Positions 57,315 through 64,000 of a stretch of 64,000 nt of DNA are shown one piece after another (the first letter of the stretch is position 1; each line of letters opens with the position of its first letter). The position numbers and the translations under genes were made by a program. Under the pieces are notes generated by a model. The model searched no databases, was not told the origin of the DNA, and saw nothing but the letters and a program-made list of their open reading frames with translations. This DNA comes from Selenobaculum gibii (GTDB taxonomy: Bacteria > Bacillota > Negativicutes > ICN-92133): NCBI RefSeq assembly GCF_030273445.1, contig NZ_CP120678.1:2085501-2149500 (forward strand). Direction: 5' to 3'.

Positions 57315-57587
57315 ATGTTTATTCCTAAATTAGTTATATTTGAAGAAAAAGCATTAACCTATCCGAAAGGTAAAGCCTTACAAAAATTTTTCGAAGAAAA
57401 ATCTATTCCTATTCATTATCAAAAAACTACTCGTATTATTTTAAAAGGTGATGCTCCAACAAAATATCAACAGGGTAAAAACACCTTGGTTATTGGTGTT
57501 AGAAAAATCAGCGAATTTCAATCATGCAAGCCTTCTGCCCATTATCAACTTCCTTTAGTTAGTGGATGCATGGGGATTGTTTACTAA
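57315..57587 (+). pseudogene. splB: 5' fragment of a spore photoproduct lyase gene, cut at the radical-SAM motif
   Basis: Ninety codons. MFIPKLVIFEEKALTYPKGKAL and TLVIGVRKISEFQSCKPSAHYQLPLVSGCMG align, from memory of Bacillus SplB, with its residues 5-90. The intact family member continues HCxYCY, giving the CxxxCxxC iron-sulfur site; here the frame runs IVY-stop right after CMG. Full-length lyases have about 340 residues, so three quarters are missing and the fragment cannot be active. The cut point coincides with the left end of a recombinase-bearing element, so insertion is the best explanation. The 3' part may lie beyond the window. Confidence 0.8.
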
Positions 57588-57591
57588 ATGA

Positions 57592-57634
57592 TGACATTAA
57601 ATAAATTGACATTAAATAAATTGACATTAAATAA
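57592..57634 (+). repeat. Three 15-bp direct repeats at the element's left end
   Basis: TGACATTAAATAAAT occurs at 57592-57606 and 57607-57621, with a 13-bp third copy from 57622. They begin within a few bases of the truncated lyase frame. Position and regular phase suggest binding sites for a recombinase. Confidence 0.75.
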
Positions 57635-57721
57635 TACTTGAATATGCTATTAAAACATAAACAAACTCTTACAATAAAAGGGGTTGTTTTTTTTATATAG
57701 AATAACATATTTATACATAAT

Positions 57722-57778
57722 TTGGCATTAATCATTTGCACTGATTTATCTCAAGGAGAGTATTGGCATAAATCATTT
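57722..57778 (+). repeat. Pair of 16-bp direct repeats upstream of the first recombinase
   Basis: TTGGCATTAATCATTT (57722-57737) and TTGGCATAAATCATTT (57763-57778) differ by one base and are offset by 41 bp. They lie just ahead of the first recombinase's ribosome site, so they could be operators or accessory recombination sites. Confidence 0.55.
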
Positions 57779-57791
57779 AGGAGTTGAATAT

Positions 57792-59036
57792 GTGGGCGAG
57801 TTAATCTCAATAAATGAAATTGGCTATAAATTTATAATTAGAGCTGCTTATCATAGAAAAGTTACTAATAGTAAAGATGAGTTAGAACAGATTTGTCTAA
57901 TTGCTGTTCAACACAATACGCTTAACAGACATTTTATTCATCCTTTTTCGGAATTTGTATTACTATTAAAAAAACAAAGTTATAGTTCGATGAAGAACAG
58001 AGCAGAAACAGTTGTCCGATTTTTAAATTTTATCTTAAAGAATAATAACAAGTATAAATTAAAGACTTTTTCGGATTTAGATGTCAGACATGGAACTGAT
58101 TATATAAATAATCTAGTTTATAACAAGCGTACTATTTCATATAGGAAAACAGAAGAAAATAACCTTACCAAATTTTATTACTTTTTAGCGTGCAAAAACC
58201 TCTTGAATTTAGTGAATAAGGATGATTTTAAATTCATTATGAATAACGAAAACAAACACCCCAAAACACAATATTTAGAATCATTTTTTCCAGAAGCAGA
58301 GCATTCGAGTAGAAAAAGAACGAATCGACACTTACATACAATGGAATCTGAATTATTAGTTCTATTTTTAGAGACCGCTAAAGTGGTTACTCCTAGAATT
58401 GCTTTAGGTGTATATTTTCAGGTTATGGGTGGACTAAGAGCTTCCGAAGTGTGTAATTGCACAAGAACAGGAAATACGCTTTATGGCATGTATGGTGAGT
58501 TTGGTGTAGATGTGCGTTTACAAAATCAAAACTTTAGTAAAAAACCACAACGTAATGCAACGCACGTAAAAAAACCAAGAATGCAAAGTATTGAAGTTTT
58601 CCACGATTATCTTCCTAAATTATATAAAAAACATATTGAAAATTATCTACCTTCCGATGGTACACTAGCTTTGTTTGCGGATAGAAATGGACAAGCAATG
58701 ACTTTTAGAAATTATGTATACTATTTCGGAAAGCTAAAAGAAGCCTTTATTAAAAATTTAGAGAAATCTCTTAACCCAAAACTTCAGGCTTATGCTATCA
58801 CTCTAAAAGCGATTAAATGGGGTACCCACATCGGTAGAGGAATATTTAGTAATATAGTATCTGAAATAACCCAAAGTCCAATAATAACCAAAATAAAACG
58901 CGGCGACAGCAATATTAAGTCTCAAGAGCCTTATATGGAAAATACGGCAACCAGAAAAAGGCAAAGCGCAGAAGCACTGGATAAAATGTACGAAGAAGGT
59001 TATCGTTTATTGAAAGGAGACAATAATCTTGACTAA
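57792..59036 (+). CDS. Tyrosine recombinase A of a three-recombinase element
   Basis: A 414-residue phage-integrase-type recombinase. An N-terminal SAM-like core-binding region (about residues 45-155, LKKQSYSSMKNRAETVVRFLNFIL) precedes the catalytic domain (about 175-400). Catalytic positions are Arg I in GGLRASEV (R216), HxxR as H346/R349 in GTHIGRG, and the nucleophile Y381 in SNIKSQEPYMENT. At the position of the second His/Trp is Asp (RGDSN). It probably binds the element ends and cuts one strand. The GTG start is behind TTAGGAG. Its last 8 bp overlap the next gene. Resembles TnpA of Tn554-like transposons (inference). Confidence 0.85.
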   Translation: MGELISINEIGYKFIIRAAYHRKVTNSKDELEQICLIAVQHNTLNRHFIHPFSEFVLLLKKQSYSSMKNRAETVVRFLNFILKNNNKYKLKTFSDLDVRHGTDYINNLVYNKRTISYRKTEENNLTKFYYFLACKNLLNLVNKDDFKFIMNNENKHPKTQYLESFFPEAEHSSRKRTNRHLHTMESELLVLFLETAKVVTPRIALGVYFQVMGGLRASEVCNCTRTGNTLYGMYGEFGVDVRLQNQNFSKKPQRNATHVKKPRMQSIEVFHDYLPKLYKKHIENYLPSDGTLALFADRNGQAMTFRNYVYYFGKLKEAFIKNLEKSLNPKLQAYAITLKAIKWGTHIGRGIFSNIVSEITQSPIITKIKRGDSNIKSQEPYMENTATRKRQSAEALDKMYEEGYRLLKGDNNLD

Positions 59037-61443
59037 GAACGCTGAAATTATTGTAGATGGTCAAAAATATATTACTATAAAAAAAGCAGCTATATATTTA
59101 GAGCTTAATTGTGGAAGAATTAGAGAACTTTTAAAAAATAAAAGGGTTAAATATCATAAAGCCCCCTCTCGCATTTATATACTTAAAAAAGATATTTTTG
59201 AATATAAAGCAAAATGTGATAATATTCGTGATAATTATTATCCATTGCTCAAAGCAAGCCAATTGGCAAATATGGATACAAAATATTTTTATAAGATTGT
59301 AAAAAAATACTTTAAATCCTACATCCTTTTTGGTGGTAAATATTATGTATCTAAAGAAGAATTCGAAAATTACATTCAAAAAGAGAATGATCTCAATAAA
59401 AACTATTACACCCTTGAAGAAAGTGCAACTCTTTTGGATCGTCATAGCTCATCTGTTTTCGCATTAGTAAAAAAGAAACAGTTTAAGGGTACGCTTCTCT
59501 TTAAAAATAAGTACTATATCCCCAAAAGTGAAGTTGAGTTATTTATTACAGAAAATTTTATTAATAACGATGAATATATAGTTATTACTGAAGCAAACAA
59601 TTTATATGGCATTGACTTAAGGACGTTAAAAAAACTACCAAACACTCGCATGGTGAAGCAACCTAGATTTAAAGCCCTCATCTATAAAAAAGATATCGAG
59701 GCATATCTTCATCGACAAAAATACTTAAATACAGATCCAATTCTCGAAGATTCAAAAGCTGCTTATGAGTTTTTTATCATTGAGAGTACAAATTTATTTG
59801 AAAACTCTTTATACAAAGAAACAAGTACCCTATATAAAAATTTTGTATTTCTTCAACTAAAAAAATCAGAGGAAAAAAATAAAAGAAAGGCTATCAGACG
59901 ATATATCCGATGTTCTAGACGTTTACTTAAACTGATACATAAAGATATTTTTTTATTTGATGATAATGAAATTAAATTATTTTTAAGTGAAGAAAGTATT
60001 ACGACTAACGACAGTGCCCTTATTTGTAGATTTCTACTTTATTGTAAATCTATAAAAAAAAACAAGTGTCGATTTACTGTAATTCCTGTCATACAACGCA
60101 AATATGATAATAGTGAGCAAAGAGAAACAATCCCCGAAAAAACGTTCGTTCAATATCATCAAAATGTAATTGATTTGAATTTCCATATACAAAAAGCTGT
60201 AAAGAAATCAAAGCACACACAAATTTGGATATATATTATGATGCACTTATTTGAAGCGTGGAGAGCTGGTGATATAAAATCTATTCCAAATATAGATTTA
60301 GATCAAGTAAATATTGTTGATTTCAGTTATTTCAATAACAATTTGAATGGTCTCTCTAAGCTCCAGGCAGAAATAATTCTTCAGCAATACTATATGCACG
60401 AACTTATAGTTAATAAAACAGGTGCATGTAATAGTTTTAATGTACCTAAATCACTTATTATCCCTTTTGCAACCGCCTTAACTATTGCTGAAATTCATCG
60501 GCGGAAAAATAATAAAAAATGTATAATGTATCATTTCCAGAATAGTTATCCTAAGAAATCGGACTATTTGAGATTTTTTAATGGGCAATCAGAACTTGCC
60601 GCGTTTTCTAATTTAAAAGCATGTAGAACTTTTTTAACTCTTTTTTATGAATATGTATCTGAAAAATCAAACTTACAGAGTATCGCAAATGAAGTAACAC
60701 GGAGATTGCGGAGTCATAAATTGCAAGAGAATGATATGTTGCTAACCAATACTACATCTATTTATATCCAAGAGATGAATAATAATGAAAAAGAAGTAAA
60801 TTTTTCAGTCCATTTATTTGAAAGAGGGAGCTTTGGTTGGCTCTATCATACTTTATTACTCTTTATCGCTGGTGATAAAACATGGAATCGATTATCACTA
60901 CAAGATAAAACTAATTTAATTGTTGGAATTGAATCTAAACAAAGTCCTCTTCAGATAGAAGGATTAGGTAAGTTTTTATTACGGCAGCAAGAAAAGAAGA
61001 AAATACTTATTGATGAAATACGTAATTTTCCCAAAGAAAAATTATTAGATAAAATCCAAGGAATATATGAAGGGATAATGCCAGCAAGAGTTCCAGAAGC
61101 TCAATGTTTTGTTTATGGAAATTGTAAGCACCCAAAGCCACAAAAGATTTGTTATCAATGTGAATATCTTATTCCTAATAAATATTTTCTTGTATCTCTA
61201 AAAAACGAATTATTTAACTTGCTAAAAGCTTTTCAAGACTTGATCAATAGAGAAGAAAAAGCAATAAAAAGCGGGTATTTCTTAAGTTTAGACGCAGAAA
61301 AAATGAAATTAAGATGGATTTTATTAGAATATATGAATTTATTAGGCGAAGCATTAGATGAAGAGTGTGGCTTAGGGAGAGAAACAGTATCAGCTTTTAT
61401 TGATTTGAATTTGTTATATAAGAGTCTTGAAATAGTGCGTTAA
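59029..61443 (+). CDS. Large tyrosine recombinase B with four excisionase-like repeats
   Basis: An 804-residue protein in a TnpB-like position. Residues about 14-60, 70-117, 126-175 and 183-229 are four repeats of a winged-HTH excisionase-type domain: each opens Y-[IYV]-x-[ILV], has an A-x-x-L region, and closes with Y-x-[VI]-x-K-x-[DE]. A divergent recombinase core follows: Arg I in EAWRAGDI (R412), Arg II in KACRTF (R533; Lys where His is usual), His in LRSHK (H563) and Tyr in TTSIYIQE (Y579). A CFVYGNC...CYQC cluster (C693, C699, C708, C711) may bind zinc. TTG start behind GGAG; 8-bp overlap with gene A. Confidence 0.8.
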   Translation: MTKNAEIIVDGQKYITIKKAAIYLELNCGRIRELLKNKRVKYHKAPSRIYILKKDIFEYKAKCDNIRDNYYPLLKASQLANMDTKYFYKIVKKYFKSYILFGGKYYVSKEEFENYIQKENDLNKNYYTLEESATLLDRHSSSVFALVKKKQFKGTLLFKNKYYIPKSEVELFITENFINNDEYIVITEANNLYGIDLRTLKKLPNTRMVKQPRFKALIYKKDIEAYLHRQKYLNTDPILEDSKAAYEFFIIESTNLFENSLYKETSTLYKNFVFLQLKKSEEKNKRKAIRRYIRCSRRLLKLIHKDIFLFDDNEIKLFLSEESITTNDSALICRFLLYCKSIKKNKCRFTVIPVIQRKYDNSEQRETIPEKTFVQYHQNVIDLNFHIQKAVKKSKHTQIWIYIMMHLFEAWRAGDIKSIPNIDLDQVNIVDFSYFNNNLNGLSKLQAEIILQQYYMHELIVNKTGACNSFNVPKSLIIPFATALTIAEIHRRKNNKKCIMYHFQNSYPKKSDYLRFFNGQSELAAFSNLKACRTFLTLFYEYVSEKSNLQSIANEVTRRLRSHKLQENDMLLTNTTSIYIQEMNNNEKEVNFSVHLFERGSFGWLYHTLLLFIAGDKTWNRLSLQDKTNLIVGIESKQSPLQIEGLGKFLLRQQEKKKILIDEIRNFPKEKLLDKIQGIYEGIMPARVPEAQCFVYGNCKHPKPQKICYQCEYLIPNKYFLVSLKNELFNLLKAFQDLINREEKAIKSGYFLSLDAEKMKLRWILLEYMNLLGEALDEECGLGRETVSAFIDLNLLYKSLEIVR

Positions 61444-61453
61444 GGGAAGTGCT

Positions 61454-63160
61454 TTGAAAATGGATCAATTTGTATTAAAAGAGAGTGAAAAAGGAAAAAC
61501 TCAATTAGTTATTAAAAATGATAATGTTATTTTTAATTCTTCGGAAATTACCGATTACATAAATCGTTTTGAAAAACTAAAAGAACTTGGGAAAATATCT
61601 GTAAATACTAATTTCAACGACATTACCTGGATTGCCTGTTATAAGAACGGAAAGATTCGTAATATTAATTTTAAGGTAAATAAATTAAAATTAAATAATG
61701 TTTTGAAATGTCTTGTCATTATAAAACTAGAACAAGGTATAAGGCCGTATACCTTACCCCCACTTATTAATGCTTTACAAGAAGTTTTAATTTTAACAAA
61801 ATGTTTCTCTAAAGATAAAGTTGAGGATCTTGAAGATTTTTTTTATACAAAACCAAAGAATACTGTAAGGAGAGCATATTTAATAATTGATAACTTTTTA
61901 TCTTTTTATCCTATTTCTAATTTAGACGACTATGAAGATATCTTAGATAAAAACGTTGCTTTGAGTAACAGTAATGTAAGAAAGTTACCGAATTATAAAA
62001 GCATATTAACTTTTGATTATATTATTAATAAAACTATTTTAGAAAGACAAAATAATGATTTATTGAAATATTATCCATTATTTCTTTGGTGGAGGATCAC
62101 TTCTATTATCCCTTTGCGCCCATCGGAATTTTTAGAAATAGAATTTGAGTGTTGCTGGAAGGATGTAAAAGATCGTTATTGGATAAAAATTCCACGAGAG
62201 AAAATTAAAGAAACTACTGCAAAACGCAGAATTGAAAGAGTTGATATTTTAGAAACAACTTCAGACATTTATGGCTTTATTGAAGAGTATAAATCTTTAT
62301 TAAAACCAGAGTTTCGGTCTCCTTATCTTATTTCTTGGAAAGCATTTAACAGTTTCTGCGTTACTCCTGATAACAACTTGAATAATAAATTAGATCAAGA
62401 AATTATGTGTCTAAGTAGTATTAGTCACCTTTTTAACAATTTTTATAAATGTAAAATAACTGATACTGATATAGTACCATTAAAGCCAGGTGATTCTCGA
62501 CACTTAGCTTTTTGCAACATGATATTGCAAGGATTTAACCCAATCGCAATAGCACGGATCGGTGGACATGTTAGTTTAGAATCGCAGTTACATTATTACA
62601 ATCATTTAGAAACTTACGCTGAGAGCTATGTCTACACTATGTCAAGAAAACTTAAGATTGAAAACCACCTAAATACAAGAAACGCTTCGGGAAAATATGA
62701 TGCAATCAAAAGAACAGGGCTTCTATGCACGTATTCTTTAGACCAAATTAGAGGATTCTTGGAAATCGAAAAAGGGTATTGCACTATAAAATCAAAAGAT
62801 TGTAATGAGTTTTTTAATTGTGTAACGGAGTGTTGGTCATGTTTATACCACATTTTAGATGTAGATCGATATCCAGAAGTACAAAAAGAACTTCATGAAA
62901 AATCCGATAATCTTGCAAAAATAATTAAGGAGCAAATAGATTTATTAAAAAATATATCTAAAAACATGTTTATTGATTTAGCTATAGAAAAAGGTTCAGT
63001 TGGTACAAATTCAAAAATTAAATCTACCGCTGAGCAATTACAAAATCTCATGGCACAAAAAATAGTAATTGATTCTAAATTATTGGACTATGTAAAGGAG
63101 GAGAATTTTGTTGAAAAACAACGAGATAATTCGGCACAGAAAACGAGGCAAACCCGCTAA
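61454..63160 (+). CDS. Tyrosine recombinase C of a three-recombinase element
   Basis: A 568-residue recombinase. The catalytic domain lies at about residues 180-400: Arg I in PLRPSEFLEIE (R222), Arg II in GDSRHLAF (R349, preceded by Asp rather than His), His in RIGGHVSLE (H372) and Tyr in HYYNH (Y381 or Y382). A five-cysteine cluster follows (C443, C450, C456, C460, C463), then a coiled-coil C-terminus (about 475-560). It begins 10 bp after gene B at TTG 61454 or ATG 61460; spacing from AGGGAAG favours TTG. Its end overlaps gene D by 53 bp. Of the three, its catalytic set is nearest to the canonical form. Confidence 0.85.
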   Translation: MKMDQFVLKESEKGKTQLVIKNDNVIFNSSEITDYINRFEKLKELGKISVNTNFNDITWIACYKNGKIRNINFKVNKLKLNNVLKCLVIIKLEQGIRPYTLPPLINALQEVLILTKCFSKDKVEDLEDFFYTKPKNTVRRAYLIIDNFLSFYPISNLDDYEDILDKNVALSNSNVRKLPNYKSILTFDYIINKTILERQNNDLLKYYPLFLWWRITSIIPLRPSEFLEIEFECCWKDVKDRYWIKIPREKIKETTAKRRIERVDILETTSDIYGFIEEYKSLLKPEFRSPYLISWKAFNSFCVTPDNNLNNKLDQEIMCLSSISHLFNNFYKCKITDTDIVPLKPGDSRHLAFCNMILQGFNPIAIARIGGHVSLESQLHYYNHLETYAESYVYTMSRKLKIENHLNTRNASGKYDAIKRTGLLCTYSLDQIRGFLEIEKGYCTIKSKDCNEFFNCVTECWSCLYHILDVDRYPEVQKELHEKSDNLAKIIKEQIDLLKNISKNMFIDLAIEKGSVGTNSKIKSTAEQLQNLMAQKIVIDSKLLDYVKEENFVEKQRDNSAQKTRQTR

Positions 63161-63776
63161 TGAAAGTTTTAATAGAGAAAATCTTTTAGTTAAGCTTCGT
63201 GAAATTTCATTAGTTACGGATGAAACATTGAACGCGAATAAATTAGAAAAACTAACTGGAATTAAGCGCCGAAACTGGAACAAAGTAAAAGAAGAAATAG
63301 ATTACATCAATCACTCTCGTCAAACAGGAATGGTAGACACTAACACGATAAGGTCCTTCCCATTACCAAATATTGAGGAAATTTTTGAATTATATTTTCC
63401 TCAAAATCCCAAAAAATTAAAAGAAATTTTTCAATCATTAATTGATATGGTAAGTAAGATGTATGAAAAAGTGCTAATCTTTGAAAAGACAAAAGAAAAT
63501 GCTATAACGGCATCGGCTGAGCAAGCTAGAGAAATAGAAAGATTAAGAAATGAACTCAAACAAGCAAAGGCTGATATAGAATATTATAAAACTAAGTATG
63601 ATGAAGTATGCGGAGATAGTACATATCATAGTAAGAGAGAAATTCTCAACATCCCCAAAAATGTAATCCATATACCAAAAGGACAAAAAAAACTTTTAAC
63701 TCTTGATTTTCAAGAACAATTTGGTAAGATCTTACTAGACTCAAATAAAGAGATTTTCATAAAAAAGAATGATTAA
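63108..63776 (+). CDS. Small coiled-coil accessory protein D of the element
   Basis: A 222-residue protein. The N-terminus is basic (RHRKRGKPANESF), then a helical segment with an HTH-like NKLEKLTGIKRRNWNKVKEEI (about residues 44-64). A long coiled coil spans about 105-175 (EQAREIERLRNELKQAKADIEYYKTKYDEV), then a basic tail. Position, size range and coiled coil recall TnpC, the accessory protein of Tn554-type elements, which helps orient transposition; homology is not shown. It starts at TTG 63108 behind AAGGAGG, inside gene C, so it is translationally coupled. Confidence 0.75.
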   Translation: MLKNNEIIRHRKRGKPANESFNRENLLVKLREISLVTDETLNANKLEKLTGIKRRNWNKVKEEIDYINHSRQTGMVDTNTIRSFPLPNIEEIFELYFPQNPKKLKEIFQSLIDMVSKMYEKVLIFEKTKENAITASAEQAREIERLRNELKQAKADIEYYKTKYDEVCGDSTYHSKREILNIPKNVIHIPKGQKKLLTLDFQEQFGKILLDSNKEIFIKKND

Positions 63777-63803
63777 CAAGCTTCATAGAATTATTTTAAA
63801 AAG

Positions 63804-63923: not shown

Positions 63924-64000
63924 GTATAGTTAATATATGAATTTTATAATAGTTCAGCGATAATTTGAAGAACTCTCAATATATTAGGAAATCATACTTA

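Follow-up and report, generated by a model that had tools for sequence, protein, structure and literature searches.

A probable four-gene tyrosine-recombinase transposon in a spore photoproduct lyase gene, with relatives in other target genes

Tn554 inserts in radC, a DNA-repair-named gene. For two other groups of elements, the strand-biased circularizing integrative elements (SE) and the genomic islands with three integrases (GInt, Tn6571 family), the requirement for four genes and the 6-bp footprints have been shown experimentally (PMC10214605, PMC5385486). SE elements have been reported in Gammaproteobacteria only (PMC10214605). The four-gene GInt operon is essential for integration and excision, which involve 6-nt staggered cuts, and has ssb among its insertion targets; Firmicutes examples are mentioned (PMC5385486, PMC10121019). 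Tsy elements have the gene content YRec-HTH-TnsF-nuclease with no inverted repeats reported, and their TnsF selects a conserved 10 bp in the Walker B motif of the recombination gene comM (PMC10293859). Three-integrase islands of E. coli are known to carry defence cargo (PMC10121019). Among the papers searched, none mentions spore photoproduct lyase together with a tyrosine recombinase. Here we describe a 17,586-bp element in the spore photoproduct lyase gene (spl) of Selenobaculum gibii. It is very probably an integrative transposon that moves by tyrosine recombination through four co-oriented genes and, by analogy, would work like the SE, GInt, Tn554 and Tsy elements.

The stretch of DNA analysed, here called the window, comprises 64,000 nucleotides (positions 2085501-2149500, forward strand) of a single-contig 2.68-Mb genome. 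The 5' part of spl runs on the plus strand from its start codon at 57315 to the GCMG codons at 57576, and 57315-57587 matches Pfam SPL (1.3e-20) and positions 1-90 of TIGR04070 (3.2e-26), in agreement with the earlier note, which had the lyase frame cease to be recognisable at GCMG. A genome search with TIGR04070 returned exactly two spl pieces, both on the same strand. The first covers model positions 1-95 at genome 2142818-2143084, and the second, outside the window, covers positions 89-338 (E 3.5e-105) at genome 2160665-2161405, 17.6 kb to the right of the break. The note had proposed a recombinase element inside spl with the 3' half within the size of an element; this half is present, and since the genome holds two same-strand pieces the objection that there is no 3' lyase fragment falls away. 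The break lies directly after GCMG, in the radical-SAM cysteine motif, and splits the gene in frame; the 3' part begins at the Met preceding the second Cys and is without the first Cys. No second spl copy was found in the genome by the TIGR04070 search, no spl N-terminus was read at the element's right end, and no replacement spl was found inside the element. Judged by its sequence, Spl is lost in this host, which has an spl of the sporulation type and clusters with other genomes in which spore photoproduct lyase is intact.

In silico excision of the 17,586 bp (window 57577 to genome 2160662, window-equivalent 75162) together with one copy of the 6-bp end gives an in-frame Spl of 333 aa with the sequence GCMGMCEYC, and the identical nine residues are present in an intact homologue from the class. 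The earlier suggestion that the insertion sits on a highly conserved codon run also held. When about 20 intact spl genes from the class were compared, nucleotide conservation along the gene reached the 97th percentile in the 24 bp centred on the insertion site and the 99.8th in the segment directly right of the spacer. Within a 300-genome sample of the class, spl exceeded the family cut-off in 45 genomes and two genomes (G044 and G050) gave partial 3' matches, while the two-piece split was seen in none of the other genomes; the host's family has a single representative in the genome sample, the host itself.

The ends of the element form inverted repeats. The first 8 bp, TTGTTTAC at 57577-57584 on the plus strand, match genome 2160655-2160662 on the reverse strand perfectly, and over 24 bp the two ends are identical at 15 positions. 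The left junction reads GGATGCA TGGGGA followed by TTGTTTACTAA, and the right junction reads TTGGTAAACAA followed by TTCGTA TGTGCGAATATTGC. The left spacer, TGGGGA (57571-57576, plus strand), would represent the attB bases of the host, and the right spacer, TTCGTA, differs from it. We infer this 6-bp partition: a spacer of 4 to 8 bp fits equally well because AT flanks both spacers, and we settled on 6 bp as the length documented in SE, GInt and Tn554 elements (PMC10214605, PMC5385486). Inside the left end, on the plus strand, are the direct repeats pointed out previously, a tandem array of the 15-bp iteron TGACATTAAATAAAT at 57592-57634 (2.9 copies, 100% match), and two more iterons, TTGGCATTAAT and TTGGCATAAAT, at 57722-57773. 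The 15-bp repeat belongs to a set of TTGRCATWAAT-like iterons that are present at both ends and mostly face inward; allowing at most one mismatch, seven sites fall in the terminal 300 bp versus ten in the other 59.7 kb.

The left end of the element carries the four same-strand genes that had been listed before, all on the plus strand and overlapping or closely spaced. ORF1 (57792-59036, 414 aa) is an IntA-like tyrosine recombinase with R216, K260, H346, R349, R370 and Y381. Its catalytic residues are kept in 14 homologues with one exception at K260, and its model (pLDDT 80) matches Tn1549 Int and XerH in Foldseek (E 4.6e-8 to 3.7e-7). ORF3 (61454-63160, 568 aa) is an IntB-like large tyrosine recombinase in which R222, K250, R349, H350, H372 and Y381 are invariant in 15 homologues. 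ORF4 (63108-63776, 222 aa) is a coiled-coil-like auxiliary protein of the Srap/GinD/TnpC kind whose position is conserved in relatives. The earlier note counted three tyrosine recombinases. On sequence criteria the clear ones are ORF1 and ORF3, whereas ORF2 (59029-61443, 804 aa), in the position of SE Tfp, is a less certain case. Its N-terminus contains four tandem winged HTH repeats of the HTH_17, Xis-like type (59065-59706, residues 13-226), and these match the excisionases Pukovnik Xis and Tn916 Xis. The non-canonical C-terminal part keeps R412, K530, H563 and Y579 in 13 of 13 homologues and also has a Cys cluster; a second Arg is found in 10 of 13 and the canonical HxxR is absent. As this region has low pLDDT in the model and weak matches to recombinase-like folds, we treat it as a putative recombinase-like domain, with uncertainty.

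Similar to SE elements, the module is a left-end operon of overlapping genes with cargo to the right, in the same order of ordinary recombinase, non-canonical large protein, large recombinase and small coiled-coil protein. Further likenesses to SE are IntA and IntB with recombinase catalytic residues, short terminal inverted repeats, and a 6-bp spacer or fingerprint logic in which the attL and attR spacers differ (PMC10214605). The size of 17.6 kb compares with an SE median of 15.7 kb. The inverted repeats of SE are 13-19 bp and imperfect, in contrast to the 8-bp core seen here; SE Tfp is without the RHRY motif, which ORF2, with R412, H563 and Y579 in all 13 homologues and the second Arg in 10, may in part retain; and no HTH array has been reported for Tfp, whereas ORF2 has four HTH domains. 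An hhalign comparison of the four proteins with those of SE-Pda04Ya311 (pAQU1) gave probabilities below 2% throughout, with one reference and low power. SE hosts are Gammaproteobacteria, whereas the host of the spl element is non-gammaproteobacterial and the module's named relatives are Bacillota. Because homology to SE proteins was undetected and the survey reported Gammaproteobacteria only, the element is not filed as SE.

GInt elements, likened here by description, share the four-gene operon, site-specific insertion in genes and defence cargo, and ginABCD has its non-canonical protein third where the spl element has it second. The earlier comparison with Tn554 is fair, but Tn554 is not the closest system, as SE and GInt are the elements with this four-gene layout. 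Tn554 has three genes, tnpABC, with no Tfp counterpart and a radC target, in contrast to four genes and spl; the large and ordinary tyrosine recombinases, the small TnpC and the 6-bp left-flank carry-over are held in common (PMC10214605). RIT elements also have three adjacent genes of the tyrosine-recombinase type, but all three are 315-410 aa with a catalytic tyrosine and the inverted repeats are 34 bp (PMC10214605), as against 414, 804 and 568 aa, a fourth gene and 8-bp repeats. For targeting, Tsy offers by analogy the best precedent. TnsF is likewise a recombinase-like second protein with N-terminal DNA-binding domains that is directed at a conserved codon run in a catalytic motif; it differs from ORF2 in having zinc fingers rather than an HTH array, and its target is proteobacterial comM rather than spl. 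Drawing on these systems, IntA and IntB would join a circular form to the spl codons for C-M-G-M-C by exchanging strands within the 6-bp spacer. The ORF2 protein would help in target finding with its HTH array and/or bind the end iterons, ORF4 would act as an accessory factor, and TTCGTA at the right end would be carried over from a previous host site.

The cargo begins at 63777, continues through the end of the window at 64000, and extends within the element to genome 2160662; to the right of ORF4 it lies on the opposite strand to the four-gene module. Its genes encode a protein with a caspase domain (Peptidase_C14; PDC-S65 model), an SF1 helicase that has a nuclease-like domain at its C-terminus and resembles the MkoA, MkoC and Hhe helicases, and, as a two-gene unit, a HEAT-repeat protein and a protein with an LmuA/OloB-like C-terminus. 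Matches to defence models suggest that the cargo probably serves anti-phage defence. In the two-gene unit (L004:12447-16534, genome 2151947-2156034) the HEAT-repeat gene overlaps its partner, making it a candidate two-gene defence unit. In Enterococcus faecalis, too, a caspase gene follows the related module, and its product shares the NCBIfam type of the caspase in the spl element.

Among plasmids, and in one scan of 84,980 species genomes, we identified about 18 other loci with the module in complete or partial form; these are not tied to spl. The hosts are Paenibacillus, Cytobacillus, Filobacillus, Gracilibacillus, Domibacillus, Sporosarcina, Clostridium magnum, Bacillus and an Enterococcus faecalis plasmid, and the gene order intA-tfp-intB-srap recurs in every relative with a complete module. 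The spl target therefore holds for the spl element alone and not, as the idea of a family always aimed at spl would have it, for the whole family: relatives lie in a pol IV-like gene, topo III, RarA and an ATP-dependent ligase, and beside an isochorismatase-like gene. The pol IV-like gene is broken in five loci (L034, L038, L039, L040 and L042), all at residue ~283, and both halves were found in L034 and L039. These elements have CCAACA at attL and CCAGTA at attR with VLLEL in frame, the same 6-bp logic. Topo III is broken at its catalytic YPRTDS in L041 and L044, with both halves found in L044, split YPR/TDS; thus spl, pol IV and topo III are the targets for which both halves were recovered. 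The left terminal sequence GTATCTAT is common to the pol IV elements and the topo III element L041. RarA is broken in two loci at two sites, at QKSIRGSD in L046 and at the Walker B motif LLLDEV in L048. The ligase is broken in L035 and L045, with one half seen; its N-terminal half was absent from the three downstream ORFs of L035. Collectively, the roughly six target sites are suggestive of a broader preference for conserved codons in DNA-maintenance genes, although the bias is not absolute because L043 abuts the end of the isochorismatase-like gene. The notion that the elements aim at codons hosts cannot change fits part of the set, namely spl, topo III (YPRTDS) and RarA (Walker B; KSIRGSD). 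Tsy/TnsF provides an experimental precedent for it (PMC10293859).

Several relatives carry further copies or rearrangements of these genes. Intact pol IV genes lie inside two of the pol IV-breaking elements (L034:15999-17246 and L039:18594-19805), as if replacing the broken gene; that of L034 is 82% identical to the broken N-terminal part and has a YolD-like gene adjacent. On the right side of the element that interrupts rarA at Walker B, L048:14264-15607 encodes a complete RarA homologue, which may be a rescue copy or a repaired chimera, the contig ending nearby. In L036 and L049 the module neighbours topo III. On the E. faecalis plasmid (L036:13824-18624) this topo III is split by a large reverse-transcriptase/maturase-like ORF, likely a group II intron, and adjoins the four-gene module and the caspase gene, with vat(A)/vgb(A) and van genes in the vicinity. 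L049 and L050, from Sporosarcina sp. D27 and Paenibacillus sp. J45TS6, agree exactly in their module coordinates and profile scores, which suggests recent cross-genus transfer or contamination. A 5.1-kb circular Campylobacter jejuni plasmid record (L037) holds ORF1-like pieces and an ORF2-like protein with ~8 HTH repeats, with no matches to ORF3 or ORF4, and is possibly a circular form or an assembly fragment of an element.

The HTH array varies among relatives in both number and sequence. Counted by best matches, there are five HTH in three pol IV elements, eight in the topo III element L041 and eight in the Campylobacter plasmid protein, more than ten in L052, and 0-1 in the ligase elements. 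Between the spl element and the pol IV elements the array is 17-22% identical compared with 31-32% for the remaining ORF2; between pol IV and topo III elements the values are 26-29% and 43-44%, and among pol IV elements 67-77% and 78-87%. Between elements with different targets, the aligned sequences indicate that the array is less conserved than the remaining ORF2. We offer as a tentative hypothesis, which we think possible but on balance unlikely, that ORF2 is a modular target reader that re-aims these four-gene transposons. Such a reader would consist of winged HTH units, from ~0-1 to >10 per element, fused to a recombinase-like domain, and would be directed at different stretches of codons in DNA-maintenance genes where the encoded protein is strongly constrained. 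The Bacillota family would then comprise separate lineages for spl, pol IV, topo III, RarA and ligase, and its selector would be guided by protein, in analogy to TnsD/TnsF, yet built from repeat units.

A competing account, to which we give a substantial but less than even chance, is that the HTH array plays an architectural part like that of an excisionase, by binding to the subterminal iterons of its own element, with target choice arising from IntA/IntB core binding alone. The Xis-type character of the HTH domains and the inward-facing iterons at both ends are consistent with this, as is the finding that relatives with 0-1 recognisable HTH still sit in a specific gene, the ligase. It accords less well with the difference of five and eight HTH between pol IV elements and L041 despite their common GTATCTAT, and with the greater divergence of the array across targets, though general divergence could explain the latter. 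The bias towards repair and replication genes could itself be a sampling effect, given few lineages and genes of this kind that are conserved and common on plasmids. We consider this plausible while leaning against it: about six target sites are identified, targets are assigned for part of the loci and one is the isochorismatase-like gene end, yet nearly all assignable targets are DNA-maintenance genes, several hit at catalytic motifs. Tn554 in radC is a precedent from outside the family. GInt in ssb (PMC5385486) and Tsy in comM (PMC10293859) are independent precedents as well.

As to the nature of the element, ordinary phage or ICE integration that struck spl by chance seems highly improbable. 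Tyrosine recombinases drive phages and ICEs too, but no phage, conjugation or replication genes were recognised among the cargo, ORF1 had no match in 50,697 phage records and ORF3 no relative in IMG/VR. That the element is an old, degenerate island fixed and immobile in spl is unlikely, though less so. It is present in a single copy in the genome, an ORF3 homologue was found in 1 of 300 genomes of the class (the host itself, with none in the other 299) and 2 of 398 of the phylum, and the modules of its relatives L042 and L044 are clearly broken; against this stand four open genes with conserved active sites, and terminal repeats and target halves that are intact.

An integrative transposon of the SE/GInt-like kind in spl, as we favour, would bring to Bacillota, a phylum without examples in the SE survey, a complete four-gene family whose ends and targets are defined. 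Should target choice lie with the HTH array, the members of the family would be natural integrases for different conserved gene motifs and could lead to tools for site-specific insertion. The family also raises the question of why Tn554 (radC), Tsy (comM), GInt (ssb) and the present family settle in DNA-repair and recombination genes, and of why some elements bring along an unbroken version of the very gene that they interrupt.
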